A DNA stretch of 64,000 bases from positions 10,483,001-10,547,000 of the forward strand of contig NC_135254.1 of the NCBI RefSeq assembly GCF_964204865.1. Reading direction: 5' to 3'. Below the pieces are notes generated by a model that made no database searches, was not told the origin of the DNA, and saw only the letters and a list, made by a program, of their open reading frames with translations. The DNA is from Styela clava (lineage: Eukaryota > Chordata > Ascidiacea > Stolidobranchia > Styelidae). Positions 2,600-64,000 of the stretch are shown here, in pieces. A program made the translations under genes and the position numbers. Within the stretch, counting starts at the first letter, position 1. Every line of letters starts with the position of its first letter.

Positions 2600-5500
2600 G
2601 AATACCTTATGGGTTTTTTATTGGATTACGTGACAAATATGGAAACAATACTTACACATGGAATGATGGATCAACATTGACCTACAGCAATTGGCTTAAT
2701 TCTGTCACTGAGCCAAATAACGTCAATGAAACATGTGCTATGATGGGGTGGACACATACTTTCAAAGCCAATTTACCGTGGTACGACATAAAATGCCAAA
2801 CACGAAATGGATTTGTATGCCAAAGATATGTAGGTACGTTTATTTTAATGAATAAATTATTTTTGAACGTAATTATGATAAACAATACATACGTACAATA
2901 AACATGAATAAAAATGATTTTGAACCATTCTAAGTACAGAAATGGTAAACCAAGTTTTAGTTCATAGTTTAGGTGTCTTACATACCTTTACTGTGTAACA
3001 AAGTATAATTATGTTACTACCAATTAGTTACTATGTGATATGCAATGTAACTTAATTTGCAGAAATGAGGCTGATCAAAAATGTTTTTATTTTGTTCACT
3101 CAAATTCCTTTTCATAGGTCTATATTGGAGTGAGTGGAGTGGCTTTTCATCGTGCAACTGCAGCGGTTTTCAGCAGCGTACACGGACATGCATAGACTCT
3201 GGACGTGACGGGCCAAACAACTGTTCCACTGCAGATATAGTTAATATAAATGTACGCAGAAATACTAATAATTGCATTAGCGAATAAAGCTATATACATA
3301 CTTCAGGAGGTCCGCTATACCAGTATAGTGAGTCTACCTACTCGAACCAACCCTAGTGTTTAATATTACAAATCATTGCATTTTTTTTAATACCTCTTTC
3401 CGCCAAACGGTATTTCGAGACACTACCATTTAAATGAGTTCATTTAACAATATCTGATTTTGTTTTTATAAATATGTTAAATGCTCAAATATTTTATCTG
3501 AGAGTTTTTGTACCATAAATAGCATGAGATTCGAGGACTTCTTCAGATTACCGTAAAGTGAGTCATTTTATAACAACTACGTATACGTATATGATTCAAG
3601 TACATATTGTAAATTGGATCTTGAAGTCTTCAAGCTCAGACTAAACATGGGCATTTAAATAAAACGAATATTACCAAATTAATAATGAACATTTAACTTA
3701 TCTCTAGAGGCAAAACTGTTCAATTCCATCGGAATGCCCAACAACAACAACAACATCGATTCCTGAAACCACAACAGAACTTACATCAAAACTTATAACA
3801 ACAGGTATCGCCACTACTACAACTTGTAAATATAAATACATAATGAATATGATACAGTGGCGGGATTCGCACAGATTCGCGCGAACACTTTTCGAAACTT
3901 TGTCATAACCCATTCTTGAGCTGACGACTAGTGTTATATTTTGTGGTTCAAAGGTTGTATTAGATTTATGTACAGTGTTTCAAATTACTGTAACTTACGC
4001 AGGGTCACGCATTAGAAAATAAGACGTGTGGAGTTATAAAGCTGTAAATTCGGCACTATTTTTAGTGAGTTCGATACAAAAGAAAACCTAAAAGTTTGAA
4101 TCCCACCATCGGATATGAACCATGATTCAATTGATAGAGTCTTAGTCAGATTGATTTTGGAATTCATGTACGTCTCACAAAACAAGGTTCCTGAGTATTT
4201 TACAGCACATTTACACGTTTTAGTTTGTTCGATGTGTTTACATTACATACATTTTTGCAGTTACAACGAAAGACTCCATGCCAACCTCCGCAATCTCTAC
4301 TTCCGGTAAGCTATCGTTAGGAATAATATTTTTATTATTGTTTCTATGTTCTTGAGTATCTCTAAGTCTAGTGCTTTACAATGCATGCTACAACTTTTAT
4401 CTTACATTTTTATAACCTATATATTATATTTACAGTTACAGCAAAAATTCCCACCACCTCCACTTCTGGTACGTCATCATTATGTGTAATTACGTTGAAT
4501 ATTGAAGAAGTTGTTTTGCCGACAGTTTAAAAACTTTCGTATTTCTTAAAATATATATGTATAAAATAGTGGTAGTTTTTCTCGCTGATTGCTTTTTATA
4601 TATTGAGATAAAATTGAAAAATATGTCATGCAAATTGATGATTTGATCATATTTTCAATCAGTGGGTGGTGCAATGACTATTTCTTTTCAGAAACAACAC
4701 CACTTCTTTATATTGCGATAGGAGGTGCGGGTGGAGCAGTAATTCTACTTGCTGTTGTTATTGTAGTTGTCTGCTTGGTCCGTAAACGGTAAGTCAACGG
4801 TATAATTACTTTTAAATGTTAATTTGATATATTTTCAGTAGAATATCAATATAAAACATATTAAAAGTGGACAATCCTACCCATGCATACGTTGTCATTT
4901 CATTACAGTATGTGTAAGTGTGAAAACGTTTAAATTTCGCAGTGGGCTCTAATTTGTATAAAAGCTTAACATAAACCAAAATACATTTCCAGTAGACTGC
5001 ATATGCTTTAGTTAATGTGGCTCAGTTGAAGACATATTAGTATAACCCCCAAAATGACCAGCCTCATTTCAACGCGAACGACTAATTATACAATGAATTT
5101 GCCTACATGACAATAAAAATGCATGTTCATAAAATGATTTTTAAGAACTACCACAAGCAAAAGTTCCAGTGAAAAAACTCAAAATGACGAGACACCAGTG
5201 GAAGAAGCCGAATACTCAACTATTGTTGGCACTAATGTTGAAGGTAAAGTGTTCTGTATCACATTTTGTACCTCGAATGGGATTCTTAAATTTCCATGCT
5301 AAATTGTAATCCGGCGCTACAAGTTCGAAGTATATTCATGGTAATGATAACTGTGTTAGTCAACGAGGAAGTCTGAATTTTCGATTCGTTAATACCAATT
5401 AGATATGAATCATACAAAATGAACTGGAACTTAGAAGTGAATGCCTAATACCACTTCTTTCTCTCTTATTTTGTGTTAGTTGATTCATATGCACTGACGA

Positions 5501-8500
5501 TGAAAAAGAATCAGAACGTTTATGTTGAGTTTTAACCACCTAATCATATTGATGTGTATTGTTTTTAGCTCTTCCCGAAGGAGAATATGCAACCATGGGA
5601 ATAACAAATTCCCCGCATAACAAACAGGAACTCCCAGAAAGAAATCCATATCAAAGTAAACTCAGCGTAAAGATTACTAAGAAAACGAACATTGAAGCAG
5701 GTATGACAAATGGATGAATTATAAGAATTTATATTTTTTGGCATACTACACGATATACGCTGATTATTTGGTTTCTGCGAGACTAACTACTTATCCTTCT
5801 TCTATGTTTTTGTGCCGGTGGATCCGTATGCATATCTTGCAAGGATGCTGTAGCAAGAGTAGAGATAACAATCCTAAGTGATTCAAGAGTCTTGCTGCAC
5901 ACTAACACAAATATATTTCTGTAACGTTTCGTCTGACCAAGGTCAGACTTCTTCAGACATACATAATTCAACTACAACACGAAAAGCAGTTACATGCATA
6001 TTTAAACAATCATAGTAGAATTATAGGAGTCACGCATGTTAAATAATCAATAAAATCTGTGAATTTCTTGATTAAATAACAGCGGGTGGCCGAAATAAGT
6101 GTCATTGATGAGATCTCTCTCTTTGTTTTATATTTAGCAATTGAAGTCCAAATTATACAATGGTGTTTTATTTCTCAGTATTGTATAATGCAGACCAGAA
6201 AAGTTGTCTGTGTGTCAAATGTAATATAGTGATATTTTGTCTGTTATTAGCATATCTGGCCATGCATGATCCAATTCTGAGAGAAAAATATATTAGGTAC
6301 AAGAATTGATTAAAACAATGAATGAAAATATCTAAACTTCCTTAATATTCATCCCTTGTGGCTCGTGTGTCCCGAAAAGATGAATGTAATGGGATTCCTT
6401 GTTCTTTCGATAAATGTGGTCATGAAATAGTTTTTCAATGCCAATGACACTCAAATCTTTAAGTGCATGTCCCGGTTGACTGAAATGGGCGCCAACAACC
6501 AGATCTTTGTTTTGGGTTTTTATACTTCTAATATGCTCAGTTATTCGGTATTTTAAATGTCTTCCCGTTTCTCCTATGTATTGCATGCCACACTTTTTGC
6601 AGCTTATCAGGTAGATTACATTTTCCGAGTTGCATGTAACTTTTTGACGAATCCTTATTTCTGCTGTCTTTTGTTTGTTTGTTGCAATTTTCCTTTCTTC
6701 GGAATATTGGCAGGTACTGCACGATTTTCTGCCACATTTGAAAAAGCCTGGATTCTTTTTAACGGGGGTTTCTGGTTTCAATTTTGCTCTGACTAATTTG
6801 TCCCTTAGTGTGGGGCATTTACGATAGGCTAATCTTGGTGGTTTTGGGAAAATTTCTTTTAGTCTATCGTTGTTATCTAAAATGTATTGGTGATCTGAAA
6901 ATATTTTTCGAAGGTTTGGTTGGGTCGGGTGATAGTTTGTGATGAAGGGAAGCAAAGTTTCTTTTTTGGTTTCAGTTTTTGGGATTAAAAGGAGTTTTCT
7001 GTCGAGTTCTTTTGCAGATTGTATTGCATCTTCAACTAAATTTTCTTTGTAGTTTCTCTTCGTGAGGTATGTTTTCATTATTTTTGCATGTTTATCAAAG
7101 AGCTCATTTGTTGAACAGGTTCTTCTTATTCTGATGAATAGACTTTTTGGAATATTTTTAGTGACATGTTTAGGGTGGCAGGACGATTTTCATTCATTGT
7201 TTTAATCAACTCTTGTACCTAATATATTTTTCTCTCAGAATTGGATCATGCATGGCCAGATATGCTAATAACAGACAAAATATCACTATATTACATTTGA
7301 CACACAGACAACTTTTCTGGTCTGCATTATACAATACTGAGAAATAAAACACCATTGTATAATTTGGACTCCAATTGCTAAATATAAAACAAAGAGAGAG
7401 ATCTCATCAATGACACTTATTTCGGCCACCCGCTGTTATTTAATCAAGAAATTCACAGATTTTATTGATTATTTAACATGCGTGACTCCTATAATTCTAC
7501 TATGATTGTTTAAATATGCATGTAACTGCTTTTCGTGTTGTAGTTGAATTATGTATGTCTGAAGAAGTCTGACCTTGGTCAGACGAAACGTTACAGAAAT
7601 ATATTTGTGTTAGTGTGCAGCAAGACTCTTGAATCACTACACGATATATATGCTATTAATTACAAGAACAACAACATAATACCAAAACTATCCATATATA
7701 TGCACACTTCGTTTCCGATAATTATAATTCCATATTATATTATCTATAAATTCTTATACCATTTCGACATAATTTCAATATAGACAGATTTAATATTGAG
7801 CACAAAGATGACCTATTGATTGTATTGCAATACTTATTGCTGTTTCTTGTGCTGTTTTGGAATGAATTCACTTTTATCTATACCTACTGGTCGTAAAGCT
7901 TCCAAATATAAAGCGCAAAAGCTTTTATTCTTTTTCAACCTTTGAAATTATTCTGGGCATCTTGTCAAAAACCTTGCCTTTAAAAATCTGTCTTCACGTC
8001 GATTTTCTTCCCATTTATTCAATTTTCAAGTGATTCTGCATCCATGTTGAAAGTCACGAAATAAGGTATTTTTGTTCAAATAGAATGAGGTCTTGATGTT
8101 TAAGTGGTATTTTAAAAATTCTGTGCTGAATTATTTTTTCTTTAACGCAGCAGGACCAACCGATGAATATGCCACTATACTAAACAGTACCAAAATGAAT
8201 GCAAAAGTGACCGAAAGCGAATACACTGTCATGCAAGGTAGTTCGAAAAAAGGGAAAGGCAAGCTAAATACAGATAAACAACTCCAAGTTCTGGACGAAA
8301 CAACAGAATCCACAATCAACACTATGAGCACGCAAAATATTTCATCTGAAAATGCTGAGCTTTATGCGGCTGTGATTCCAAAAGCTAAGCGAACAACTAT
8401 CAATAAAAGACAGAGCACTCGTGGAGACACACAGAAGCCGGTGATAACCAAAATCGAACCTGTGATCGGAGAAATAAATGACCCTCCTGTCAATGATTTG

Positions 8501-8929
8501 TACTCTTCATTGATCAAGCAATCACCAGCGGGTGCCACAGGACCTTCAGATCAAATGTATGACGTTTTGAATTCACAAGATGGCTCAGTGAAAGCTTTGT
8601 CAAAAATAGCGCAGCCCTCCATTAAAAACCAACACGATTCAAACTACGAAGAAACAATGCTGAATTCAGGAAACCTGCCCATGGGAACAGCGAGCAATCA
8701 ACCAGAAAAACAAATCGATTACGTAGAAGAAGCCATGTATTCTTCATTGTCTGATGCGTCCACCACCACAGGCGTACCTACAACTTCGGAAACAGCTAAA
8801 AAATCATTGAAAGCTGAAAATTCCACACTTAATGACAAGGAAAATGAAACTGAAATGTACGCATTATTGAAAACCAATCCTGATGCTAACACCACAAACG
8901 AACAAATGTATGATGTACTGAAATTATAA
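2600..8929 (+). CDS. C-type lectin-TSP1 transmembrane receptor with long multi-tyrosine tail (5' end missing)
   Basis: Exons read at 2600-2833, 3118-3251, about 3710-3823, 4261-4305, 4436-4468, 4692-4789, 5146-5243, 5569-5700 and 8151-8929, all with compatible phases. The first gives the second half of a C-type lectin domain (PYGFFIGL, EPNN loop, WYDIKC, GFVCQR). The next is a thrombospondin-1 repeat (WSEWSGFSSCNCSG, RTRTCIDSGR). Three short exons form a Thr-rich stalk. One transmembrane helix (AVILLAVVIVVVCLV) is followed by KR. The tail carries EYSTI, EYATM, EYATIL, EYTVM, LYAAV, LYSSL, MYDVL, MYSSL, MYALL and a final MYDVL. The exons for the signal peptide and first lectin half, present in the paralogues at 31, 44 and 56 kb, are not in the window. 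AATAAA lies 39 nt past the stop. A type I signalling receptor is inferred; ligand and partners are unknown. The last intron carries a Penelope-like insertion. Confidence 0.8.
5480..5535 (+). other. Possible alternative last exon giving a short tail
   Basis: A good acceptor (ttttgtgttag) precedes a reading frame that joins in phase 1 to the exon ending at 5243 and gives VDSYALTMKKNQNVYVEF then TAA. No in-phase donor follows the last coding codon, so inclusion ends translation here instead of entering the long tail encoded from 5569. It could be an alternative terminal exon, a poison exon or a decayed exon. No polyadenylation signal is obvious before 5569. Confidence 0.35.
5877..6329 (+). repeat. 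Left inverted arm (pseudo-LTR) of the Penelope-like element
   Basis: The arm runs from agtgattcaagagtcttgct to aatgaatgaaaat and is the reverse complement of 7187-7635 with few differences. It contains the hammerhead-like motif in minus orientation at 5925-5956. It immediately follows the endonuclease stop codon in element orientation, so it is the 3' pseudo-LTR. Confidence 0.85.
6332..7186 (-). pseudogene. Penelope-like element RT C-terminus plus GIY-YIG endonuclease (5' truncated)
   Basis: The frame is open from about 7184 down to the stop at 6332-6334. It starts inside the reverse transcriptase C-terminal region (HPKHVTKNIPKSLFIRIRRT), continues through the first internal Met at 7078, a linker, a CxxxxCxxC zinc-binding cluster (KCGRKSCSTCQY), then the GIY-YIG nuclease signature of this class (VIYLISCKKCGMQYIGETGR) with a following RITEH. 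The linker and endonuclease make up most of the 248-residue ORF that starts at that Met. The catalytic RT palm and everything upstream are missing, replaced at 7187 by the inverted arm, so this copy cannot be autonomous. It represents a dead or trans-mobilised insertion. Confidence 0.85.
7187..7635 (-). repeat. Right inverted arm (pseudo-LTR) of the Penelope-like element
   Basis: This is the reverse complement of 5877-6329. It joins the reverse transcriptase fragment at attttcattc and ends at gaatc, directly before the second actacacgatata flank. It holds the hammerhead-like motif in plus orientation at 7559-7590. Confidence 0.85.
7559..7590 (+). ncRNA. Hammerhead-like ribozyme core in the pseudo-LTR
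   Basis: The order is CTGAAGA, an 8 bp stem (gtctgacc / ggtcagac) closed by a two-base loop, then GAAAC. This is the layout of a hammerhead core (CUGANGA, stem II, GAAA). One extra A lies between the first box and stem II, and I did not identify a convincing stem III/cleavage site, so activity is uncertain. Hammerhead motifs are an established feature of Penelope-like pseudo-LTRs. The other arm carries the same motif at 5925-5956 on the minus strand. Confidence 0.5.
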
Positions 8930-8967
8930 AGAGACTAAATGGTTTCATGTTTTCCTAAAGTTGGGGG

Positions 8968-15790: not shown

Positions 15791-15814
15791 CATAACATAT
15801 TCGGTAAAATATTA

Positions 15815-27682: not shown

Positions 27683-30600
27683 TCAAGCATCATAATCATT
27701 TTCAGGCATTGAATTGATGTACGGATGTTCTTTTGTTGTGGTATCAATCATTTCTTTGTATTGAAGATCTCCGTCTTTTATTTTCTCATAATTATGCGGG
27801 ATTTCATAATTTCCTTCTTTCTCTTCTCTTAACTCATAATTTCCGGAGTTCAGTTGTGATGTTTGAATTTCATTGATTTTTTCATAAGAACTCGGGACAT
27901 CATTAACAACGTTATTCATCTCTGAAAGACGTTGTGGTTGAGTTGCGATTTTTTCAGAAATTCCCCTTGTAAACAACAATAAGTTAGAAATAATTCACAA
28001 GTAGGATTTGAATAGGAAACAATGGATTTATTTTCGGAATTGCTTCTACCATAGAGGAGTTAGACAAAACAATCGACGAAAATTTTAGAGCCTAGTACCG
28101 CAGACATTGTTCCAGACATTGAGATTGGGTATACAGCTGTATAAAGATTCACACCTTACTGATTCAATTAAGAGTGAATACTCCAAATTTTCGGAAAATA
28201 TACATATTTTGTTGTAGTATCAAACATTTCTCACCTCATTATTTTGTATCTACAAATCAGCAAACCGATTCCAAATAAAATGGTTGCAAGAATCAATGTG
28301 ACTATGGATGAGACGATTGCAACCAATAAATTGTTGTGGTCTGCAATATAATATATAGTACGAATCATAAACCTTAAACAATTTATCAGAAATTTACAAC
28401 TCAACAGTACTGAAGACAAGTTGAACATGAGTTGTAAAAATCACAAGGTCAGTGAGCATATTGTACCACAAGATAGTAGTAATATATAATCTATATAATC
28501 TTATATATATAATCTTACCACAAGAAGTCATTGTAGCAGTAGTGATTGCACTAGTGGGAAAGAGAATGTTTATCTCCGTAGATTTTGTGTTATTTGCATT
28601 GGCAGACAATGTGGAAGTATGTGTCATGTCATTGAGAGTTGTAAATTTATGATGGTGTAAATTTATGACGGTGGACGTTGTATTACAGGCAGTGTCTCTT
28701 GAACAATTGGTCGTCTGAAGAAGGTAATTGAGTTTGGCAATTTTTCGATACCATTTATGTACAATATATTTATATTTCCAACATTTATTTAAATCCGAAG
28801 TTTAATGGTTTAACGTTCTTCAAAAAGTTAAACAAATTCAAAAATGCTCACAAAAATATTAATTCACACGCTTATGAAAAATAACGAAAGTGAATAATTT
28901 AGATTTTAGATGAATCAAAACTTTTTAGGAGAATTTGTCTATAGCCAGGTCGGGCGCCCTGAATAAGAACTACTACATACTTACGTTTACGACTGCGGTT
29001 ATACGCTATAAAATAGTAAAAACTATTCAAACAACATAGAATGATGATCCTTTTTCTTTTGAGCCCTTTAGAAAATTAGAAATTATCAACTTTCTACAAA
29101 AAATGGCATTTTTTTTGTTTCTTACCTCAAAATTAGAACCAATGCAAATATTGGGCCCCGTTCTTCCCGAGTCAATGCATGTTCGATTCCGTACTTTCAT
29201 CATTGAGCTGCAGTTACATATACTTCACGATGACCAGGTTTCCCAGTATCTTCCTACATAGTGTAAAGATAATCTTAATTCAGAATTACCGCGCGCATAC
29301 TCTTTTCATCGATGTTGTTAATGATGCATACTCAAACTATATCATATTCTAATTTTTCTGCTCATTTAAATTGTTGTTTTTTTACAGTCAATCAATAGTT
29401 TATTTATCACCAAAATGAACAGACACTTGAATCAAACAAAAACTAGGAAAAAAACATGAGACATCGATGAAATGAAACACGCCATATCGGTGAGTAAAAT
29501 AATTTACGAATTATTAACGTATTCTTCTAATACTTGAGATAAAGTAAATATGAAGTGATGACGTGACATGTCAAACTGCTATATTTATTCAAAATAGCTT
29601 CAATGTAATCAAGGATTTGTTCAAAGGAAATTGTTTTAAAACGAGTTTTTTTGCCTGTTTCGATTAGAATGACTGTATTTTTTTACGTAGTAAATAGGTT
29701 TAAACATAAATAGGAAAAATTGCCAATTGCTTCTTATTCGTATACAAATATACAAATATCGATGACTTGCTTATACACGCCTTCTCAAGCTGTAGTGCAA
29801 TACGTCCGCAAACATGGTCGGCGGAGAAAGACGTAAACGATAAGCCATTACGTGAACCTCTGTGTCGACGAGAAGTCCAACATTCTTGCACATTGTCACA
29901 TCACTCATGAGGCCAGGGGCGAATATACCATTGGGCAAGGTAGGCTAAAGCCTTGAGGCCTCTAACCTCGTGGGCCTTAACAATCAATTTTGAACTTATA
30001 TTAATTTAAAATCGTTTTTGATTTGTTAAGGCTTGTTCCAGGATAATGTCACTTTAAAACTTTAAAACTAGTTATCATATTTGTTATTCAGGTTATTTTT
30101 TTCAAATATTTACCGAATAAAAGATTGAAAAGTTAAAATATGGCCGAATAAATGAATTTGTAATAATACATAAATTTGAAATCCCTATCATGGCGTTATA
30201 TCCCATCGATGACAGTGAAACTTGAAGCAAACACTATAATAATCATTTATGTACTAATAATTATTCAAGAGTAGTTAGTTTTGAACGGAATATTTATGAT
30301 AGAATTCAGCTGTTCGGTTTTGAGCATTTTTTTTTTATCAGAAACTGAAATTTCTGCTGTCAGTAAATTTATAATATTGTGCGATCGCTGAAATGCCAAG
30401 TGCTACTGAAATCATACAGTATTTTGTTGGTGCAATAAGCAACAGCGAATACCTGTTGATGCGATACTTTAAATTATTTAAATTAATGTTTTAAAGTTTA
30501 TATAAACTATCGAGCAGTAAACATTTGCATGATTAAAATGAACTAAATTAAAGTTAATGGCATTAAAATACATAAATAGTTATTTGTATAAAGAAAAAAG

Positions 30601-33811: not shown

Positions 33812-36800
33812 ATGAGAATCGAATTATTATTTTTGTTGGTTCTTCCTCAATATCCGAGGCCTCTGAACGCAACAGGTATTATTTCATTATTATGACTTTT
33901 TTTAGAAAATTTACTGAAAATAAGGTTACTCATACAGGTATAAGGGAGATTGATCTGATCAAAGATTTTGAGACTATAAAAGATTAAAGGATAGAATTGA
34001 GCGTTGGTAAATACCGATCGGCACTAAGCTTAAAAGCAGTTTATATCAATACAATCAGTAAAAGACGTGTGAGGTATTGAATTCCATATACATGGAGTTT
34101 TTGTAATGAACCTAGGAATTATAGGTCCACTAACAGTAAACCGATGAGAGCTCACAGTCAATCGTATTTAACGGCTGAAAACTTTTTAGGGGGACAATAT
34201 TCACATTTTTGAACATTTGGTAAGCGGTAACAACGGTTGCCTGACAATATGAAATGGTAAAATTTGTTTAGATAATATAGGATTACATTACGTTATGTCT
34301 CAAATATTAATTTATTTTGCCAGAATGTCGGGAAACGCCCATGGATCTTGTATTTATGCTGGATGGATCGGGTTCTATCACAAATGTGAATTGGGAGCTT
34401 ATGAAGTCATGGGTCAAGTTAGTAGCAGAAAATTATGACTTAGGCGGATTAACACAGATTGGCGTCGTTCAGTTCTCACACTGGTTTTCAAATGAGAAGT
34501 AAGCTATAGAAATAGATTTGATTTTATTTAATTAGATTTTAAGTCGCATTTATAAACATTTTATTTAAATTATTCAAAGCAGCGGCTCAATCAGTCAAGA
34601 TCAAATTTCCCAGAAACAGCTGCCATGACATGTATTTGGCTTAACTTTGTGGCGAAGAATGATTCCTTCTTAAACGTCAAATGAGATCATCATGATCACC
34701 ATAGTTGTCAAAATTATGTCAACAGTGTTTTAGCTCTGTTGTGTATTTTAGTGCTTTATTAAAAATTAACAAGGAATTAGTTTTGATCGTTTTCCACTTT
34801 GTTCCACTTCGCTGCGAGCGTTTTTACGACTTTTATCTGGGTACAGTAAGACTAAGATACATTCTTCTAAAATCATTTTCAGCGTTTGTTTGTGTTTTCA
34901 AATTCATTGTTATTCAATAAAAAAATTCGATAAAACAATTTTCATTTTTTTTTTCATAGCACACACTCACACAGCCATATTTAAAAACTGAAATTCAGCT
35001 AGGAAAACTGAAGACCAAAGCCCAATTGAAGGTAAAATATTCATCAAGGGTTGAACAGTCGAGACTGGTACCGTCGCGGTAAGATCGGACCACAGTTCTT
35101 GCAGATAAGGTATCGAACATGGCGGAATAAAAAGTATTCAATACAATAGTAAACTTTCGAGAAAATCATTTGGTTCTATAATTCTTAAAAAAAATTCCAT
35201 TCGTAACAACAACAAAAAAAAAAACCCAGAATTTAGCATGTTTTAGATTCACATGTACAATAAACGCAGTTGCAAAACAATGCTAGTGAGATAGTGCGGG
35301 GTCACGTTCTATGCAAAAAAGAACTAAAGTAATATTTATTAAAGTAATATAAGAACTAAAATAATAACTGAGTAGTCATTAGGCCGCTGTTGACGAAATA
35401 TCAATTCATGGATTCACAACTTACACTGCACATGCTATCAACAAAACAGTAAACGAAGATTTCATGAGATCTGATCGTTTCTATGATGCTTCAGTAAAGA
35501 AAGTCATTATTTTATTTACAGATGGAAGGTAATAATTTTATTTATTTCAATGCCTGAATACACGCAAAATGCATCTTTGAATCGTATCGTTAACTGTTGT
35601 TCATTTTTTTGTTAATATTGTTAATTTCCACGGTTCATGTAGTGGTAGTTAGCAGAGTTCTTTTGATATATCCGTATATTTAGACCCTTTGTTTTTTTTT
35701 CAACTTGGGTTTCTGCGCGATATATATTATTTTTATACCATTTTGGACATCCAAAAATTAAGAAGTAGTATAAAACCGTTTTTGTTTTGCTCGATTTATT
35801 GAAGTTATGTAGATTATATGTATGTAGATTGTAGATAATTGTTTAAATCTTTTGAAGATCTACCGACAGAAATGATTTGCTTTCGTCAGCAAAATATGCT
35901 CGGTCAAATGGGATTACTATATTTGCAGTTGGTGCTGGAGGTTATGTAATGGAGGAATTACAGGTAATCTGAAAAGTTGTAACAAATTGAAATAAGAGAC
36001 ATTTTATGTATCAATATGTTATAGCTTTTCTATCTTTTGTCTAATCATTATATTTCTGTGTATTAAAGATTGTTCATCAACAAGACTGAGAAAGTATAAC
36101 CAAATTAGTTATCAGGATAAAACTCTTTTTGACGGAGATTGATAAGTAACAATGTAGGCTACTGTAGTTGTTTAAATGTTCTTTCTATTTGGGCATTAGT
36201 GAGTGAGACCAGCTTCTTCTCTGTTTCTTATATCTGGGATTGGCAAAAAATATTTCATTCAAATAATATTTTTTATTAAATAATTAGGCATGTTGCACGG
36301 AGAAATGACGTATCGCGGGAGCTCGAGCTGATATGCGACTGGCGACGTTCCATTTAATCGCCCAGGATCTCCGCTGATACATTAGGCCCGTTCTCCAGCA
36401 AAACGTTAAGCCATGCATGCAAAATTGCAGATCAATAACGGCAGTGTATTGCGGAACTGCCAGTTTATTTGGACGCTGCGCGGCTCTTCAACATCTCAGC
36501 TTGTGCGATTTTCTGTGGCTAATTGTCAAAACATGTTCACTTGAATTCCTAACTTTCAAAGTTTCCCCAGTTGTGGAATATCGAAGTTAGTTTACGAGAA
36601 AATCACCTGGAGCAACATCCAACAAATCGATACATCCATACGTTTGATATCAGAGCATTTTGTTTCCTTATTGCAAACGATTGCGAGAGTGCTACCATAA
36701 TACACTGCATTTGATGAACGATCGTTTGCAATGAATTTTCTTTTTACTTGTCATATGGAATATTTACTAGTGACGCTCTGATTCGAGTCTTTTGCCACCA

Positions 36801-38796
36801 TTCACGTTTTGCCTGTGCTTGAACTTATTTGAATAAACAGAGCTAGGATTGTGGGCATGGACGTGCCAAACTTTACTGCTGTCCAGAATGAGGTTATGAT
36901 AATGATGTCCTCCAACTTCAAAAATAATTCGGGGGATAAACAAATTAAAGCTGTTGCTATACATGAGAATGAATAAATTAAAGGTCACGTATGAGGGGAA
37001 TGTTTGTAAAATTGTGATAAATCACTTAATGACCAGACGAGCAAAAGGGCGGTCATCCATTGCTGATTCATCACAATCAGTCACACAAATCTATACACGT
37101 CATGTCATCTTTTACTTGAATAAAACACATAGAGATAAAATGTGTGATATCGCGAACTCTACAGCTTGGATTTGCTGCCCGCTCATCCGCTGGCCCGCCT
37201 CAGAGTGAGGATGAAATTCACTTAGTCTAAGTTGAATTAAATGTTTCAAGCATGGTCTCTACTGGCACAATAAACCACTTCTCAAATATCTCAATACTTG
37301 TATCTTAAAAAAACAGATTCGAGCTATGTTCATCTATAGATCATAGTTGAATTATACTCGATGAAACTTGAACTCGACCTCGGCAAAATCAACTTTGTGT
37401 TGGCATGTAATAAGACTCCGGCATCCCTTTTAATTTAGCATTCACTGGTATCATTGTCTCCATTACGATTTTAATATTCATAGTTGTAGCAAATTTTATT
37501 TATGTCTTTGTGTTCACGTTTAACGACATAGTTGAATTGGGATCATATGAGTAGGAAGTATCAAATAAAACGATAACAAAAATATTTTTTTATTAACAAA
37601 CAAGACCTAACTTTGTGTAGCTTTGCTACATCGGATGTTTAAACCGAAAAATATAAAAAAGTTACCACGATAAGTTGTGATTGAAAAAGCAGATTGGGAC
37701 AGTCGTAAAATGCAACAAGTTAAACTTAACTGACGGATAAATTTTATATACATTGACAGTAACTTTTATTTACAGATTATTGCAAATGGCCAGATCAATA
37801 GCAATGAACGAGTGATTACAGTTTCAAATTTTACTAGGCTGAATACTACGGTAGACATTTTAAAGCAAGGTATATGCGCTATCCAAGGTAATGTTGATAT
37901 TAATAGTCAGTATTTATTGAAGCTGCTACGATATGTTAGTAGCCTATAATTTCGAACTACGTTTTCAAAATATTCTTTGCGCCCGAATCTGATATTAAGC
38001 CAAGACCCTATAATAATTAAATGTTCCCCATCTCGACGTCTTAGCCGAAATGATATTCGATTTTTTTTTGTTAAAATCAGTGGATTATAAGATGAGATGC
38101 TTTTTGCGCGCTACCACAACAAAATTAACGATTGAAATTTATTTTCTTGTTTTCGAAAAGCATTTCGTTCAATGCGCAGAGCTAATAATAACTCATTTCC
38201 TACATATTTTATCACATATAATATAGAAATTCACATTCACAACAAGGTATAACAACTAAAATGTACAAATTAAAGAGGGAATTATATGAGATTCAAAAAA
38301 ATATTTATATTTGTTTATAGTTCCCTTCATAGTGTCTCGCTACACTTGCACAACTTCATCGTTAGAAGTTCAATGGAAAACAACTACATTTAAGTCGATC
38401 TTCTCATACAGACTTCAAATTCAGGTTATATTAATAAATAGAATAAAAGTCATTTTATTGGTTTAAACACTTTCAGTTTGCGTTATAACATGTAATTTTA
38501 TGCTAAATATCACATTTATGTATTTAACTTATAAGGATCTCAAGACCAAAGAAATCAAGAAGACAAGTGTTCAATTACTCATGAAAAAGGAACCAACAAT
38601 AAAAATTCACGAAGAAAACACATCTTCGAAGTTTGCTTGCGTCACTACGACAAATTTGTATATTTCAAGCAACTACGAAATCGTTGTTGAGCAAATATCG
38701 GCAAAAACAAACAATCAAATAAAAACCATATCCAAAGTTCTTCACAATGCAAATGGGAAGACTATTATGCGGTTAACGTTTCTTGATTTTGTCTAA
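33812..38796 (+). CDS. Secreted von Willebrand factor A / fibronectin III-like protein
   Basis: Exons: 33812-33875 (signal peptide MRIELLFLLVLP), 34324-34498, 34960-35031, 35383-35528, 35858-35963, 37776-37887, 38321-38424 and 38536-38796. Exons 2-6 make one vWA domain with an intact MIDAS: DGSGS after DLVFML, a central TTYT and FTDG after KKVIIL. Exons 7-8 look like a single FN3 fold (VQWKTTTFKSIFSYRLQI, NYEIVVEQI) before the stop. Similar vWA-FN3 proteins are extracellular adhesion or matrix components. One problem: exon 2 ends in phase 2 (gagaa then gtaagc) but exon 3 reads openly only in phase 0 from its AG, so either a small exon, another donor or a frame-breaking change is involved. The 1.8 kb intron 5 holds a GC-richer insert. 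Confidence 0.7.
36285..37215. repeat. GC-richer insert in intron 5 of the vWA gene
   Basis: Base composition changes at about 36290 and returns to AT-rich near 37215. Internally there are complementary runs (gcaaacgattgc / gatcgtttgc near 36673-36730) and phrases such as ctcatccgctggcccgcctc near the right end. It looks like a transposable-element fragment, but I cannot name the family and did not find termini. Confidence 0.3.
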
Positions 38797-40811: not shown

Positions 40812-43800
40812 TCAAGCATCATATTCATTTTCAGGCATTGAATTGATGTACGGATGTTCTTTTGTCATGCTATTATTCATTTCTTCGTATTGATGATCTC
40901 CTTCTTTTATTTCCTCATAATTATGTGGGATTTCATAATTACCTTCTTTTTTTTCTCTTAACTCATAATTTTCGGAGTTCAATTGTGATGTTTGAATTTC
41001 ATCAAATTTTTCGAAAAAACTCGGGACATCATTAACAACGTTATTCATCTCTGAAAGGCGTTGTGGTTGAGATGCGATTTTTTGACAATTCCTCCTTAAA
41101 TAATTTACACGTGGACTTTTGAATAGGAAACAATGGATTCATTTCTTGAATTGCTTCTATCATAGAGATTTTAGTCATCATTGTGATCGATAGACACAAA
41201 ACACTGGACAAAAATGTTAGAGCCCAGTATCTCAGCCATTGTTCCGGACATTGAGAATGGGTATACGACTGTATAAAAAGTTTTATTACACTTATTCAAT
41301 TGAGAGGAAATACTCGAAATTTTTGAAAATATACACACTATATCGTAGTATCGCACATTTCTCACCTGATTACTTTGCATCTACGAATCAGCAAACCAAT
41401 TCCGAATAAAATGGCCGCAAGAATCAATGTGACTATGGATGAGATTATGGCAACCAATAAATTGTTGTGGTCTGCAATATAATTCAACATATAGTAAGAA
41501 TCATAAAACTTGAAAATCTATCAGGAATTTACCACGTACTGAAGAGAGGTCAAACATGAGTTGTAAAATCAAAAAGTCAGTGAGCATAATGTACTGCAAA
41601 ATGGTAGTTTATAAACCCTAATTTTGTGCACTTCAGACTAATGTCTCTTACAATTTGTAATCTATATAATCTTACCACCAGAAGCCGTTGTGGTAGTGGT
41701 GATTGCACTAGTGGGAAAGAGAATGTTTATCTCCGTGGTTTTTGTGTTGTTTGCATTGGCAGACAATGTGAAAGTTTGTGTCATGTCAGTAGGAGTTGTA
41801 AATTCATGATATGTATTTGTTGTCGTCATTTCAACAGTTGCCGCGGTGGACATTGTTTCACAGGCAGTGTCTCTTGAACAATTGGTCGTCTGAAGAAAGT
41901 AATTCTGATTTAGCAATTTTCCGATTCAAAAAATAAAAAATCACACGATAATGAAAAATATAAACATAGAATAATTTAGATGCATCAGAAACTTTATAGG
42001 AATATTTGCGAGGTCGTGAGCCCTGAATCTGAAGTTGCGGAGATTCACCCTAAAGGTTGCGGCTTATACACTGAAATAGTAAGATATTTTAAAACAACTT
42101 AGTAGAATGATGATCAACTATTATTTCAGCATTTCAGAAAATCAGAAATTATTAAATTATCACAATCAGGAGCATTTTTTCATTTCTCATACCTCAAAAT
42201 TCGTTACAGCTAGGTAATGAGCAAGCATTTTGAACGGAAACACAATTATAATGAATTACATATGTAAAAAAAATTACTTCCGATTGTGTTGCCTTGTCAT
42301 TGCATTGGTTTGATCCAATTCTACCGCTGTCAACACACGTTCTGTTACGCTGGCTTATTCCCTGGCATTCACAACTTCCCCAAGACTCCCATGATCCCCA
42401 ATTCCGACCTGCAGAAACATACAGAGCAAAATAAGAGTAATATATTTTACAACTAATATGATATCGGTAAGATTATGTCAAGATAAACTGTTAATGTGTT
42501 AACACTAATAACGGTGAGAACAATAGCATAGCTGTGCGAGGTATAAAGAGTGGTAAAATGACATTATTAAAACTTTCAAACACTATCAGAATCTTTCCTG
42601 CAAAAATAGCTAATCAAACGTTGTTAGTTTTGTACGAGATATACATGATAAAATTCAGCTGACAGGTTTTGGTCAACTTTCTTTTATCAAAATCAGAAAG
42701 TGCTGCTGGCAGTAAATAAATAATATTGTGCAACTGCTTTCTTATAACCATAACTTATCCAGTTGAATCCAATTCTCCCATTTTCAGAAGAATTTGCCCG
42801 AAGCAAAGTTAGTCTCACTCATTCGGAATACGATGTACTCGTATCTTGATCAAAATACGAGCGGTCTCTGAAATGCCTAGTGTTACTGAAATCATAAAGT
42901 ATTTTGATATTTGGTGGCGAAATGAGCACCAGCGAATACCTGTTGATGCGAAACTTGAAGCACTATCAATGCTATAAACTATGAGGCATTCAACATTGGC
43001 ACGAATGAAATGAACTAAATTGAAGTCAGTAGCATTATAATATATAAATAGTTATTTGTATAAAGAAAATAGTTAATAATCTACAAATTAAGTAGACTTA
43101 TTACAATAAAAGTTTGTTACCGATTAATCGTTGACAGACAAATCCAGTCGGTGCATTCGCAGCGCATTTTACGCCATACCATGGTAGATTTGCACTATAC
43201 GTGTGCCACCATCCCATAGCAACACAAGGTTCAAGTGGATAATCAGAAGGTTCTCCTAAGTACCAGTTAGTGTAGTTTAGTTCCGAATTGTCATTCCATA
43301 TGAAGTTATTAACTGTGCCAACTTCATTTAATCCAATATAAAATCCATAGGGTATTCCTGTAGACAATAAAATCCTTTAGAGTAATAAAAAGTTTTGTGG
43401 TGTGTACTATTGGTTGTATGTAAACAGGGCTGCATAGTTGGGGCTGTTGGACATAATTGAAAACATGTGCAAGTATATGAAGACTGACAAATTAGGAATA
43501 TTAAAAATTCCTAAACAAAAGGATTCTTGTGCAAATCCCAAACTACAGAAACAAAAGAATCTGATGACCATGATGTTAAATATCCTGAAGCATATGTATT
43601 TCGTATTTGTGGCAGAACCTAAAATGTCCCATTTACCTGAGATAGCTGAGACTTGATTCTGAATAAACGTTTGGATCTCGCTAGTCTTTATCATTGCCAT
43701 CTCGCCATCATTGTTTTTACAAAATGATTCACCATCATCATAAGATTTTTTATCTCCTTTTCCAGATACGTAGTATTGGTAACTTCCAAATGCATTCCAC

Positions 43801-43948
43801 TCACCTCTACCTGGTCGCAAAAAAAAACAGTCTATAAATAAGCACATAATTTGAAAGACATGATGATATTTAATATATACCAACCTGCGCTAACGACAGA
43901 AACCTTCCAAGCGAATAATCCGATGTATATCAAAAGTTTCTCCTTCAT
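40812..43948 (-). CDS. Lectin-B: intact C-type lectin-TSP1 receptor with phosphotyrosine-motif tail
   Basis: Exons in minus order: 43885-43948, 43637-43810, 43121-43357, 42278-42408, 41676-41889, 41366-41471, 40812-41094; 402 residues, no breaks. Residues 1-21 are a signal peptide (MKEKLLIYIGLFAWKVSVVS). Residues 22-158 form one short C-type lectin domain with four cysteines (FCKNND, EPCVAM, GVKC, FVCQR). Residues 159-202 are a TSP1 repeat with an intact WGSWESW ladder; 203-273 a Thr/Ser-rich stalk; about 277-301 the TM helix (SIVTLILAAILFGIGLLI) followed by RRCK; 310-402 the cytoplasmic tail. Tail tyrosines: Y352 (YELR), Y362 (YEIP), Y368 (YEEI), Y378 (YEEM), Y391 (YINS), Y400. EPN is replaced by EPS and the late WYD by WYG, so classical calcium-dependent sugar binding is doubtful. 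A signalling receptor is inferred. Confidence 0.85.
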
Positions 43949-52788: not shown

Positions 52789-55700
52789 TCAAGCATCATA
52801 ATCATTTTCAGGCATTGAATTGATGTACGGATGTTCTTTTGTTGTGGTATCAATCATTTCTTTGTATTGAAGATCTCCGTCTTTTATTTTCTCATAATTA
52901 TGCGGGATTTCATAATTTCCTTCTTTCTCTTCTCTTAACTCATAATTTCCGGAGTTCAGTTGTGATGTTTGAATTTCATTGATTTTTTCATAAGAACTCG
53001 GGACATCATTAACAACGTTATTCATCTCTGAAAGACGTTGTGGTTGAGTTGCGATTTTTTCAGAAATTCCCCTTGTAAACAACAATAAGTTAGAAATAAT
53101 TCACAAGTAGGATTTGAATAGGAAACAATGGATTTATTTTCGTAATTGCTTCTACCATAGAGGAGTTAGACAAAACAATCGACGAACATTTTAGAGCCCA
53201 GTACCGCAGACATTGTTCCAGACATTGAGATTGGTTATACAGCTGTATAAAGATTCACACCTTACTGATTTAATTAAGAGTGAATACTCCAAATTTTCGG
53301 AAAATTTACACATTTTATTGTAGTATCAAACATTTCTCACCTCATTATTTTGCATCTACAAATCAGCGAACCAATTCCAAATAAAATGATTGCAAGAATC
53401 AATGTGACTATGGATGAGACAATTGCAACCAATAAATTGTCGTGGCCTGCAATATAATATATAGTAAGAATCATAAACCTTAAACAATTTATCAGAAATT
53501 TACAACTCAACAGTACTGAAGACAAGTTGAACATGAGTTGTAAAAATCACAAGGTCAGTGAGCATATTGTACCACAAGATAGTAGTTTAAAAACCCAATT
53601 ATGAGCACTTGAGAATAATGTCTCTTATAATTTGTAAGCTATATAATCTTACCACAAGAAGTCATTGTAGTAGTAGTGATTGCACTAGTGGGAAAGAAAA
53701 TGTTTATCTCCGTAGATTTTGTGTTATTTGCATTGGCAGACAATGTGGAAGTACGTGTCATGTCATTGAGAGTTGTAAATTTATGATAAATATTTGTAGT
53801 TGTCATTTCAGCAGGCGCCGCGGTGGACGTTGTATTACAGGCAGTGTCTCTTGAACAATTGGTCGTCTGAAGAAGGTAATTGAGTTTGGCAATTTTTCGA
53901 TACCATTTATGTACAATAATATTCATATATTCCAACATTTATTTAAATCCGAAGTTTAATGGTTTAACGTTCTTCAAAAAGTTAAACAAATTTAAAAATG
54001 CTCACAAAAGATTTAATTCGGACGCTTATGAAAAATAACGAAAGTGAATAATTTAGATGATTCAGAACTTTTTAGGAGAATTTGTCAATAGCCAGGTCGG
54101 GCGCCCTGAAACAGGACTACTAGATAGGCTTATACGCAATAAAATAGTAAAAACTATTCAAACAACATAGAATGATGATCCTTTTTCTTTTGAGCCTTTT
54201 AGAAAATCAGAAATTATTAACGTACTACAAATAATGGCATTTTTTTTTTATTTCTTACCTCAAAATTAGAACCAATGCAAATATTGGGCCCCGTTCTTCC
54301 CGAGTCAATGCATGTTCGATTCCGTACTTTCATCATTGAGCTGCAGTTACATGTACTCCACGATGACCAGGTTTCCCAGTATCTTCCTGCACAGTGTAAA
54401 GATTTAAAACAATTGTTTTAAACAATTGTTTTAAATCAAGTTTTTTTGCCTGTTTTGATTAGAATGGCTGTATTTTTTTACGTAGTAAATAGGTTTAAAC
54501 TTAAATAGGAAAAATTTCCAATTGCTTCTTATTCGCAATAAATCTTTCGAAACTCTACAAATATCGATGACTTGCCCATACACGCCTTCTCAAGCTGTAG
54601 TGCAATACGTCCGCAAACATGGTCGGCGGAGAAAGACGCAAACAATAAGCCATCAAGTGAACCATTCCGTGTCGAAGAGAAGTCCAACACTCTTGCACAT
54701 TGTCACATCACTCATTAGATTCGAACCAGGGGCGAATATACCATTGGGCAAGGTAGGCTAAAGCCTTGGGGCCTCTAACCTCGTGGGCCTTAACAATCAA
54801 TTTTGAACTCATATTCATTTAAAATCGTTTTTGATTTGTGAAGGCTTGTTCCAGAATAATGTCACTTTAAAACTTTATAGTTCTCATACTTGTTATTCAG
54901 GTTAATAATTCCAAATATTTACCGAATAAAAGATTGTAAATTTGAAATATGGCCGAATAAATGAATTTGTAATAATACATCAACTTGAAATCCCTATTAT
55001 GTTATATCCCATCGCATTTACAAGCGGTGACCGGGCCCCTGATGCAAATGTCTTTGGATTGTAGTGGGCCCGTGAGACATGTTACATGATTTTTCTTGCT
55101 TTTTTTACTCAAAGCGTCACCCTGATAACTCAGATAAACATTCCTGTTAAAATCTTACGACTTTAGTGTTGGTAATAAGTTGGAGATATAGTTGCACGAT
55201 GACAGTGAAACTTGAAGCAAACATTGTAATAATCATTTATGCACTAATAATTAATCAAGAGTAGTTAGTTTTGAACGGAATATTTATGATAAAATTCAGC
55301 TGACAAGTTTAGAGCAATTTTTTTTTATCAAAAACTGAAATTTTTGCTGTAAATTATTGATATTGTGCCACTGCTTTCTTTGATAAACATAATTTATCCA
55401 GTTGAATTTAAAACATCGGACCCAGATAACCCAATTCTCACTTTTCTTAAAGAGAATTTGCTCAAAGCAAAGTAAGTCGCACTCACTAGGGAAAAAAAAA
55501 ATTCGTATCTGATCAAAATACGGGCGATCGCTGAAATGCCAAGTACTACTGAAATCATACAGTATTTTGTTGGTGCAATAAGCAACAGCGAATACCTGTT
55601 GATGCGATATTTGAAGTTATTTAAATTAATGTTATAAAGTTTATATAAACTATCGAGCAGTAGACATTGGCATGATTAAAATGAACTAAATTAAAGTCAA

Positions 55701-56615
55701 TGGCATTACAGTACATAAATAATTATTTGTATAAAGAAAAAAGAACATATTCTACAAATTAAGTAGACTTATTACAATAAAAGTTTGTTACCCATTAATC
55801 GTTGACAGACAAATCCAGTCGGTGCATTCGCAGCGCATTCGACGTCATACCACGGTAGATTTGCATGATACGCGTGCCACCACCCCATAGCAACACAAGG
55901 TTCAGGTTTCTCAATAGAAGGTTCTCCCGAGTCCCAGTTAGTATAGGTTAGTTCTGATATGTCATTCCATATGAAGATATTGCTTGTGCTAAATTCCTTT
56001 AAGCCAATATAAAATCCGTAGGGTTGTCCTGTAGACAATAAAATGCCTTAGAGAAATAAAAAGTTTTGTCGCGTGTAATATCTAATGTATGTAAACATGA
56101 TTGGTTGGGACTGTTGGACATTATTGTAAACATGTACAAATATATGAAGACTGACGAATTAAGAATATTAAGAATTTCTTAAACAAACGTATGAATAATT
56201 CTCGCGCAAATCCTAAAACACAGGAACAAAAAATTCTAATGACCATAATATTAAATAACATTAGGCAAATTCATTCGGGGATTTAGGATAAAACGTAAAT
56301 TGTCCTATTTACCTGAGGTAGCTGAGACTTGATTCTGAATAAACGTTTGAATTTCACTCGTTTTTATCATTGCCATCTCACCATCATTGTTTTTACAGAA
56401 TATTTCACTATCATCATAAGATTTTATATCGCCGTTTCCAGATACGTAATATTGGTAACTTCCAAATGCATTCCACTCACCTCTATCTGGTCGAAAAAAT
56501 AAAGAGTTTATGAATGAGCACATAATTGAAAAGACATGCTGATATACCAACCTGCGCTAACGATGGTAATCATCCAAGCAAATATCCCGACGAATATCAA
56601 AAGTTTCTCTCTCAT
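52789..56615 (-). CDS. Lectin-C: intact C-type lectin-TSP1 receptor
   Basis: Exons in minus order: 56552-56615, 56313-56486, 55792-56028, 54259-54386, 53653-53866, 53341-53446, 52789-53071; 401 residues, all phases consistent. Signal peptide MREKLLIFVGIFAWMITIVS; lectin domain with DRGEWNAFGSYQYYVSG, FCKNND, PYGFYIGL, GEPSIEKPEPCVAM, LPWYDVEC and GFVCQR; TSP1 with an intact ladder (YWETWSSWSTCNCSS) where lectin-A has a stop; Thr-rich stalk; TM SIVTLILAIILFGIGSLI followed by CRCK; then the tail with seven tyrosines. The tail appears identical to lectin-A, while the ectodomain differs more, especially around the EPx loop. This is the functional partner of the lectin-A/AADC-A unit. Ligand unknown. 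Confidence 0.85.
54408..54440 (+). repeat. Palindromic repeat at a deletion junction
   Basis: Two tandem copies of a unit like aaacaattgtttt, each self-complementary, sit exactly where unit 3 lacks the stretch of about 380 bp present at 29275-29640 of unit 1. This looks like a deletion or repair scar. Confidence 0.55.
54726..54830 (+). repeat. hAT-like terminal remnant, shared with unit 1 (29918-30020)
   Basis: Starts caggggcgaatataccattg and continues ggcaaggtaggctaaagcct, resembling the opening of hAT-type elements. Present at the same place in both units, so older than the duplication. No opposite end was found. Confidence 0.3.
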
Positions 56616-58475: not shown

Positions 58476-58479
58476 CAAT

Positions 58480-59110: not shown

Positions 59111-59116
59111 GATCAA

Positions 59117-61080
59117 TTAGACTTCTTTTGTCACAATGACATATTCATCACCATTAGGACCAATAACTGTCCTTTGTATTCTATTCTGCCTTCTGACTGC
59201 CGTGGTCTTATCAATTTCCTCGTATACATCCTGTTTACATGATTTAAAACTTGGATTGACCGGTGTTGCAACCTTATTTCAAGACTCCCTTCTTCAGCTA
59301 GAGATGGACGGAGTGCGGTCGAGACTACTTTGATTGTTGATTCCCTTTGTATTTCAGCGAAAATTTAGTTTCGACTTTCCACAGGAGAATTTCTATCGTC
59401 TATTGATATTGGTATTGCAGGTAAAATCATATTCTGTATGACTGAATTATTCCTATTTGAATCATTGTTGAGACTTTCTTTAGTTCTCCGGGGTTCTTCG
59501 GTCTCTGTAGATTTTTTGCTCGTATTCAATTGCAACATAAGGCATAATATCATTTTTGATTTTTATGTCCGTGGCTTTGAGTGAGGTCGGCAAAGTAATG
59601 TGCTACAATATTTTGATTTTGCTACTATTCTTGGTCTTTCTTCTCATTGAATTTTGTTTTGTTGGGATAACTTCAGGCGGCATTACAACCTATATTGACA
59701 CAGTTTTCATTTCTGCCATTATTATTGGGTTCTCCAGTAAACCATGTTTCATAAGATTTAGCCTCGCCATCAATCCACGCAAAGATGTTATTTCTCACTC
59801 TTTGTAATCCAATAAAAAAGCCATATGGCTTACTTGTGCAATAAATTTTTGTTGTTAACATTTTGTCGATTATTATGGGCTACAATAAATCTTTGTCGTT
59901 AAGACTTCGTTGATTTTTACGGAAAATTGGTTAAATAAGAATAAACGTTTCACATTTTTAGGTAAGGTAAGTATATTTTTAACAAATAAAATAAATACAC
60001 CAAGTCGTAGACACAGTTTTGCTTGTTAAAGTTAGTACAACCTAAAATAATAACCAATAATTCAGAAACTTCAAAATGAAACAAATTTTTATCAGCTATA
60101 TAAAAAAGCTTTTGTCATATTTTCAGAAATTTGATGTCAAACTTAATACTACGCTTTTTCAATACTGAATGACGACTACACGAAAAACACCAAGAAAGGA
60201 GTATTCGCTCAATGTCATAGCCTATACAACATTGGTAACCAAACTATTATCGCTCGTGGCCCCCTACCAGAGGCGTTTGGCCCTCATGGCCCCCTGTTTA
60301 TCAATCCAGTAGTATTTTGTATTGTTATTTTGATTGGTAAATTCCAAATCCCATCATGTTCAAACAATTCAAACTCAACAAAGTGAAAATACCTTGTGAA
60401 ATACCTTTAACGGTCAATGAAATTAGGAAAAACTTGAAATTTCCATGTAACGTAAAAAGTAAAATCAGAGTTGAGTCTAGCATGGTGGCCCCCTCCAACT
60501 GCTCTGTAGCCTTTGTAAACCACAGGTCATAGGTTGGAAACTGCTGCTATACAATATAATCATGCCTGAGTCCGGGATCACAAGACTAGAGATGAAATTT
60601 AGCGTTTCGCTTGTTTTACCAAGAGCATCCCACCCTGTTGTATACAAAAGTTTATACTTTTGTCGAAACTCCATATGTCATCAGCTTTAGATACATAATA
60701 TTCGATATTTTTATAGTCTCTGCCAACTCCCACGACGATCTATTTAGAGAAAAACTTTGGTACACTGGTTGTGTACATTAAAATTTATATAAAAAAAAAC
60801 TCAATCGTCTTTTGGTTTTCGAAAATTTGAGATTAATATTTTTGAAAAATCATTTTCTCTGGCTACTGTTTAATAATTTCGTAAACTCTTTCAAATACCT
60901 TTGAAAAATAAAACATATTTGGAGATGTATTTTTTTTAATTTTTGAATAACGTTTAATTTTAACATTGTAATTATTTCCATCATCGTTGTTATATTGAGT
61001 GTCAAATTGGAACAATTTCTCGAGTGCAGAATACATGTTTTGAAGAGAATCGACTTACATATATCACGTACCTTGGACAG
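59117..61080 (-). pseudogene. Lectin-D: decayed C-type lectin receptor with two-tyrosine tail
   Basis: Minus-strand pieces in gene order: about 60590-60745, first half of a C-type lectin domain (GRDYKNIEYYVSKADDIWSF, INFCIQQGG) broken by TAA after KQAKR and carrying a MITE just downstream; about 59690-59850, second half (KPYGFFIGL, WIDGEAKSYETW, GEPNNNGRNENCVNI) with a canonical EPN, ending before the expected WxD..C..FVC part; 59117-59272, a tail exon after aataag with VYEEI and DEYVIV before the stop. A further open stretch at 59365-59553 may be a juxtamembrane exon. I found no TSP1, stalk or TM exon. Phases do not join cleanly, so it is probably a pseudogene, though the tail exon looks undamaged and could belong to another transcript. 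Confidence 0.5.
60230..60546 (-). mobile_element. hAT-type MITE, 317 bp
   Basis: Flanked by the 8 bp direct repeat ctatacaa at 60222-60229 and 60547-60554. In minus orientation it starts cagcagtttccaacctatga, a typical hAT terminus, and the other end (cattggtaaccaaactatta) is a degraded inverted match. Internal gtggccccct repeats mark both subtermini. Confidence 0.65.
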
Positions 61081-61084
61081 AAGT

Positions 61085-61370: not shown

Positions 61371-61399
61371 ACAACTAAGCTTCAACCTTTTTGATACTT

Positions 61400-63045: not shown

Positions 63046-63048
63046 CAA

Positions 63049-63743: not shown

Positions 63744-63844
63744 GTAAGCATTAGTAGATTTATTTATCAGTCTGAACCTGTTTTTCTGCTACTAATCCAA
63801 TAAATATGTGATATTGATTATAGTTTAATTTAACTTTCCCATCC

Positions 63845-64000
63845 TTATTTAATATTGTCAATATTTGCATAGGGGTCATCGTTTACTTCAATGTCAGACC
63901 ATTCAGCATCTCCTGTGACATCGGAATTCTGATCTGTTTCAAGTTTATTGACCGTTGCATAAGTTACTTCATTGAAGTTCGAAGAATCATCTTTCTTGGG
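63845..64000 (-). CDS. Last exon of an ITIM-bearing receptor (continues past window)
   Basis: The minus strand is open from 64000 to the stop at 63845-63847, 51 residues. It reads as a cytoplasmic tail: PKKDDSSNFNEVTYATVNKL, then an acidic stretch and DDPYANIDNIK at the end. VTYATV fits the ITIM consensus (S/I/V/L-x-Y-x-x-I/V/L) exactly, and PYANI is a second YxxI motif 37 residues on. An AATAAA on the minus strand at 63759-63764 lies about 80 nt past the stop. The ectodomain is outside the window, so whether this is another C-type lectin gene of the cluster is inference from location. Confidence 0.6.
   Translation of the reverse strand, partial: PKKDDSSNFNEVTYATVNKLETDQNSDVTGDAEWSDIEVNDDPYANIDNIK

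Follow-up and report, generated by a model that had tools for sequence, protein, structure and literature searches.

The window analysed here, a stretch of 64,000 nucleotides at C5:10483001-10547000 within the 376.6 Mb assembly of Styela clava, forms one end of an array of lectin receptor genes that covers about 370 kb of a single chromosome (C5). We think that this array is probably a tandem cluster of paired activating and inhibitory type I C-type lectin receptors in a tunicate. An earlier note on this DNA had proposed a tandem family of related lectin-TSP1-transmembrane genes, in which related ectodomains stand side by side on clearly different tyrosine tails. Both proposals were borne out: self-comparison of the open reading frames (ORFs) related the genes to one another, two of them (C and D) are complete and have the same exon phases, and the two main tail classes, T and F, have no detectable similarity. 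Of the 24 array genes, we read 16 in 264 kb made up of the window and adjoining sequence; 12 of these 16 have T tails and 4 have F tails.

The two tail classes share their 5' halves. Gene F68, which has an F tail, and gene B, which has a T tail, are 89.1% identical in an alignment of 1843 bp that starts about 0.8 kb upstream of the ATG and extends to the end of the second lectin exon. The 5' part of F68 also matches the T-type genes C (76-85%) and D (70-85%) in pieces. The part of F68 encoding the stalk, transmembrane segment and tail matched none of B, C or D, and is 91-95% identical to those of the F-type genes F204 and F235. Homologous ectodomains are therefore found on different tails within one cluster, and one tail class contains immunoreceptor tyrosine-based inhibitory motifs (ITIMs; VVYATV and VTYATI in F204), both of which are features of paired receptors. 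In a tree of the lectin domains (one tree, 15 short sequences), the other three F genes grouped together at 0.615-0.717, and clean T and F clades were not obtained, since F68 joined C at 0.909. From these sequence comparisons, the sharing between F and T genes matches the pattern of paired receptors whose classes exchange sequence; the exchange may have occurred by conversion or unequal crossing-over.

The complete T-type structure was seen in gene C (40812..43948, minus strand, 402 amino acids) and gene D (52789..56615, minus strand, 401 amino acids), each with an uninterrupted spliced frame. In both, the exons follow in the order signal peptide, two lectin exons, TSP1, Thr-rich stalk, transmembrane segment and tail, with exon phases 1, 1, 1, 0, 1, 2. 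They lie at 43948-43885, 43810-43637, 43357-43121, 42408-42278, 41889-41676, 41471-41366 and 41094-40812 in C, and at 56615-56552, 56486-56313, 56028-55792, 54386-54259, 53866-53653, 53446-53341 and 53071-52789 in D. The signal-like exon is N-terminal and the transmembrane segment lies between stalk and tail, so the topology is not type II. The ORF self-comparison of the window gave genes B, C and D on the minus strand and gene A on the plus strand, together with fragment E and, at the right edge, a piece consisting of a tail alone. The second lectin exons of B, C and D are 79-81% identical, and A is 50% identical to B (E 2.8e-28); the paralogy of the lectin exons in the window is real and far beyond chance.

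Domain prediction on the reconstructed proteins, the check that the earlier note had suggested, confirmed the lectin domain and was less clear for TSP1. Lectin_C of Pfam (cut-off 22.6 bits) was found in C (50.3 bits, 4.5e-13), D (49.9 bits, 6e-13) and A (41.7 bits), which places all three in the C-type lectin domain superfamily. TSP_1 (cut-off 21.6 bits) stayed below the cut-off in D (16.7 bits) and A (14.9 bits) and was unlisted for C; it exceeded the cut-off, at 26.5 bits (7.5e-6), in F204, an F-type gene that lies outside the window. The TSP1 stretch of D also matches complement C7 in PDB (1e-4), and gene D has six cysteines across its TSP1 and stalk exons. The Pfam scans of selected array proteins listed Lectin_C and TSP_1 and gave no Ig or sushi domain. 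The canonical sugar motif of C-type lectin domains is EPN or QPD. It was present in none of the 16 first-module copies, which have EPS, EPH, EPT or QPS in its place, whereas gene A has EPN and the second-module copies have EPN or QPN. With the motif missing from all 16, it is doubtful that the first lectin module binds sugar, and these modules may bind protein instead; the assignment of the fold is unaffected by the loss.

Three tail classes, T, F and A, are supported. T tails contain YEIP, YEEI or YEKI, YEEM or YKEM, and YINS. YxxI-x6-YxxM was found in all three T tails tested (shuffle P 0.013-0.028); it has the spacing of an immunoreceptor tyrosine-based activation motif (ITAM) and ends in Met, and of its two tyrosines, the first is present in all 13 aligned T tails and the second in 12 of them. 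The F tail, 242 residues long, contains YTAV, YAVV, YATV, YATV, YATI and YANI, and Yxx[ILVM] is enriched in it (6 of 10 tyrosines, shuffle P 0.0007). In F204, VVYATV and VTYATI are of ITIM form and TQYAVV is of the form of an immunoreceptor tyrosine-based switch motif (ITSM). The A tail, with its exons joined, has Yxx[ILVM] at 10 of 13 tyrosines, none of strict ITIM form; the idea that it is a copy of the F tail was rejected on weak alignments (best E 0.16 among the matches listed). The earlier note had counted four tail sets, one of them YEEI plus EYVIV, and this set was given up since the stretch belongs to E, a decayed relic. The ITIM tail that it had described does exist as a class, although the piece in the window (63848..64000, minus strand; VTYATV, DPYANI) comprises only the final 51 codons of the F68 tail. 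The tail exon of this gene has about 243 codons, and the gene lies mostly to the right of the window, reaching about 68.7 kb in the numbering of the window.

Genome searches scored the best candidates (150 of 200 for the lectin module), so that the copy numbers are lower bounds. They gave at least 16 copies of the D tail (T class), at least 8 loci with the F tail and, at a minimum identity of 60%, at least 24 copies of the first lectin module; every one of them lies in the stretch 10.51-10.85 Mb of C5. Positional matching of 24 modules with 24 tails resulted in 23 lectin-tail pairs, leaving the tail at 10728193 without a lectin module and the lectin module at 10755579 without a tail. The former is an extra T tail (245193-245472 on the 264 kb scale), 2 kb beyond the tail of gene T257, without lectin exons of its own. 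TAA is present in 4 of the 16 T tails, and 3 of the 8 F-tail loci are interrupted and 5 uninterrupted. Less similar lectin-TSP1 matches occur elsewhere in the genome, on C18 (two), C1 and C3; two A-like tail matches, with stops within the matched stretch, lie beside those on C18. Lectin_C exon matches numbered at least 149 genome-wide, with several tight clusters on other contigs, for example C13 and C16. A GT2 match (C9:16177301-16177801) and a GH6 match (C9:16179895-16180164) lie on the same strand 2.1 kb apart. A GT2 cellulose synthase adjoining a GH6 domain is the signature of tunicate cellulose synthase, and the pair fits a tunicate genome.

Splice sites of the 16 genes were sought only in the phase that B, C and D predict, and their phases are not an independent test. 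Uniform exon lengths and open frames are better evidence for the gene models: the second lectin exon is 237 nt in 16 of 16 genes and the first is 174 nt in 15 of 16. The ectodomains in the 264 kb carry one to four lectin domains: B, C, D, T98, T111, F68 and F204 have a single one, T85, T196 and T222 have two, T172 and T257 have three, and T152 has four. The second lectin domain is partial in T127, and only a remnant is left in F181 and F235. A small exon (ICTPSASCNATMP...) links the first TSP1 to the second lectin in 7 of the 10 intervals searched. The TSP1 exons of first and second modules differ. Those of C and D are so distant that dS is not computable because C keeps the first-module type and D the second-module type, and fast change as the cause of this divergence was rejected on that ground. 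Seven of the 12 T genes (C, D, T85, T152, T172, T222 and T257) are stop-free in every detected exon; T85 and T222 have each lost one cysteine.

These features suggest how the receptors might work. Each gene would encode a protein with a signal peptide, between one and four C-type lectin domains joined to TSP1 modules, a stalk rich in Thr, a single membrane span and a tail carrying tyrosines. In T tails, Src-type kinases would phosphorylate the ITAM-spaced YEEI-x6-YEEM and SH2 proteins would be recruited; YEIP, YEEM and YINS resemble adaptor and PI3-kinase sites, and these receptors would be activating. In F tails, the repeated YATV, YATI and YAVV would recruit SH2 phosphatases and be inhibitory. 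The SH2 partners are assigned from motif knowledge. Since the 5' halves and the upstream DNA are common to T and F genes, both kinds of receptor are expected in overlapping cells and with related ligands, and the balance between them would set the response. Expression, ligand binding, phosphorylation and the sign of signalling are predicted throughout, as is an immune or allorecognition function, in which blood cells would use the receptors against microbes or non-self.

Several observations weigh against this reading. A strict ITAM, or a charged transmembrane residue for an ITAM adaptor, is the mark of activating paired receptors; the strict ITAM is absent from the three T tails tested, and the hydrophobic runs of the T membrane spans, inspected by eye, lack charged residues. 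T tails show no enrichment of Yxx[ILVM] (P 0.24 and 0.12), and tyrosine columns of the T tail are no better conserved than the others (mean 0.88 for both), so that conserved tyrosines were rejected as proof of signalling. Four of the 16 genes (B, T196, T127 and F181) are interrupted by stops or frame breaks, and the tails of T98 and T111 end early and lack their last residues. Substitution rates were estimated over 15 genes, leaving out T127 with its short first exon. The dN/dS of the whole second lectin exon is 0.67 (bootstrap 0.42-1.10), which does not support positive selection on the whole domain, and strict loop limits (residues 10-43) give a pN/pS of 0.85. In favour of the reading, residues 32-55 of this exon have a dN/dS of 1.88 (bootstrap 1.04-4.03), compared with 0.37 for the rest of the exon; this window was chosen after the alignment had been viewed, and gene conversion can produce the appearance of selection. 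When all 135 codons were scanned in windows of 24, the maximum fell at residues 37-60 (permutation P 0.014), and the fast-changing region includes the site of the EPN/QPD motif. Amino-acid change is therefore concentrated in and beside the putative binding loop, while the first lectin exon (0.39) and TSP1 (0.32) are constrained.

The proteins could instead be endocytic or scavenger lectin receptors whose tails carry YxxPhi sorting signals, the array being an expansion of dosage or ligand range with no activating/inhibitory pairing. Many tail sites fit YxxPhi (10 of 13 tyrosines in A, 6 of 10 in F), and mannose receptors are the best PDB matches of the D lectin domain. Sorting alone, however, leaves unexplained two dissimilar tails on shared 5' halves and the YEEI, YEEM and YIN sites, and we regard this explanation as unlikely. 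Recognition of gametes or self-sterility, rather than use in blood cells, would agree with the adhesion-type domains and with the variable gamete recognition genes of ascidians; the tails are of signalling type, which makes such a role quite improbable. A last alternative is that the array is for the most part a tandem repeat, decaying or inflated by the assembly, in which few genes work. Relic E, the stops found in several of the copies and near-equal match pairs (for example tails 10780343 and 10793729, equal in identity and TAA count) might suggest this, but it is very hard to sustain against the stop-free frames of 7 of 12 T genes, the 5 of 8 uninterrupted F-tail loci, the mutual differences between copies and the constraint on the first lectin exon and TSP1.

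The remaining lectin genes of the window are less complete. Gene B (27683..31377, minus strand, T tail) has seven exons: signal 31377-31314, lectin 31239-31066 and 30885-30649, TSP1 29253-29126, stalk 28714-28519, transmembrane 28340-28235 and tail 27965-27683. An in-frame TGA at 29225-29227 replaces a Trp in its TSP1 exon; B had been taken as intact, and not all window genes are usable as first supposed, since B is likely a pseudogene or the source of a truncated product. Gene A, the member with the A tail, is on the plus strand. Its second lectin exon (2600..2833, Lectin_C 2.1e-10) is preceded about 1.4 kb to the left of the window by a first lectin exon (C5:10481439-10481615) whose splice phases fit; a signal exon was not found. 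It continues with the TSP1 exon (3118..3251), an exon for the end of TSP1 and a Thr-rich stalk (3708..3804), the transmembrane exon (4692..4788) and three tail exons, at 5165..5243 (EEAEYSTI; acceptor position uncertain), 5569..5700 (EGEYATM) and 8151..8929, the last of which has two relatives on C18. Element E (59120..60724, minus strand) is a lectin relic with broken frames, consisting of lectin pieces at 60724-60605 and 59834-59688 and the YEEI/EYVIV tail-like stretch at 59230-59120, with no TSP1 or transmembrane match. Pieces of it lie at three further places in the 264 kb, showing that E was co-duplicated in the array.

Decarboxylase genes and a VWA-domain gene lie between the lectin genes, which corrects the earlier note. 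The VWA gene (34323..37946, plus strand) is divergent from gene B, whose start codon is about 2.9 kb away. Ten copies are present in the 264 kb, the nine others at 71.6, 88.3, 101.5, 114.8, 130.3, 155.2, 184.6, 207.8 and 238.5 kb. Each is divergent from a lectin gene, with the start codon 2.8-3.1 kb away in 10 of 10, and the first VWA exon is 91-100% identical between the window copy and the others. This layout suggests that VWA and lectin genes may share regulation. Two near-identical aromatic-amino-acid-decarboxylase-like genes (22224-26513 and 47435-51619, both on the plus strand), whose best PDB matches are DOPA decarboxylases, are convergent with B and D. They belong to a duplicated block (20.7-31.4 kb and 45.9-56.6 kb) that contains one DOPA-decarboxylase-like gene and one lectin gene in each copy; a third, partial copy surrounds gene C.

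The tail intron of gene A contains a mobile element (5878-7652), presumably Penelope-like, with a GIY-YIG frame (6335-7189, minus strand) flanked by long inverted repeats. An ORF of 187 residues (15818-16378, minus strand), which has hydrophobic stretches and ends in a region rich in Pro and Tyr (PPSYES), has no Pfam match above the cut-off. A 124-nt tandem repeat occupies 44492-45235 (five overlapping 248-nt windows), and an interspersed repeat with related frames occurs in introns and intergenic DNA at 2041, 9970, 14200, 22957 and 48096.

The paired-receptor reading can be extended, tentatively and with the odds clearly against it, to a tunicate counterpart of the natural killer (NK) complex. 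It would be a single-locus, copy-number-variable paired system that swaps promoters and ectodomains between ITAM-like and ITIM tails, with a variable number of lectin modules and a highly conserved head-to-head VWA gene (at 10 of the 16 genes read) encoding a secreted partner or ligand. Such a locus could serve allorecognition or be the main non-self locus of the species, and would have evolved independently of fester and FcoR.

Paired activating/inhibitory clusters are mostly discussed for vertebrates, with Botryllus FcoR and Hydractinia Alr among invertebrates. We found no lectin-TSP1-transmembrane family with tyrosine tails in the open PMC literature, which is weak evidence of absence. Paired CEACAM, Siglec-11/16 and KIR have near-equal ectodomains on opposite tails and exchange between copies; the pairing pattern is the same here, but their ectodomains are of Ig fold and these are of lectin fold. 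The Ly49/NKG2 and Dectin-type receptors of the mammalian NK complex share with the present array clustered C-type lectin domains and both receptor signs. They are type II, with a C-terminal lectin domain and no known TSP1, whereas the lectin domain here is N-terminal, behind a signal peptide. The mannose receptor family provides the closest solved lectin domains by sequence, and several lectin domains per chain are possible in both, but it is not known to have TSP1 modules or immunoreceptor-type tails. The arrangement is thus one known from fast-evolving immune receptors, here built from different parts. If the paired reading is true, a lectin-TSP1 cluster with paired logic in a tunicate would mean that this arrangement arises again from different domains, and C, D and F204 are defined genes for asking whether a chordate invertebrate sets self versus non-self by the balance of kinase and phosphatase tails. 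In Elysia sea slugs, membrane lectins and TSP1 proteins have been studied as recognition receptors; the two domains are listed there in separate proteins (PMC7663992), whereas here they are joined. The closest known system in logic is FcoR at the fuhc locus of Botryllus, which consists of clustered type I receptors with a YxxI/L/V core and ITIM or hemITAM tails, with activating and inhibitory members (PMC12065747). Tunicate host, clustering and tail logic are alike in the two, but the FcoR ectodomain is described there as IgV-sushi-two Ig (PMC12065747), while the receptors of this array carry C-type lectin-TSP1 modules in its place.

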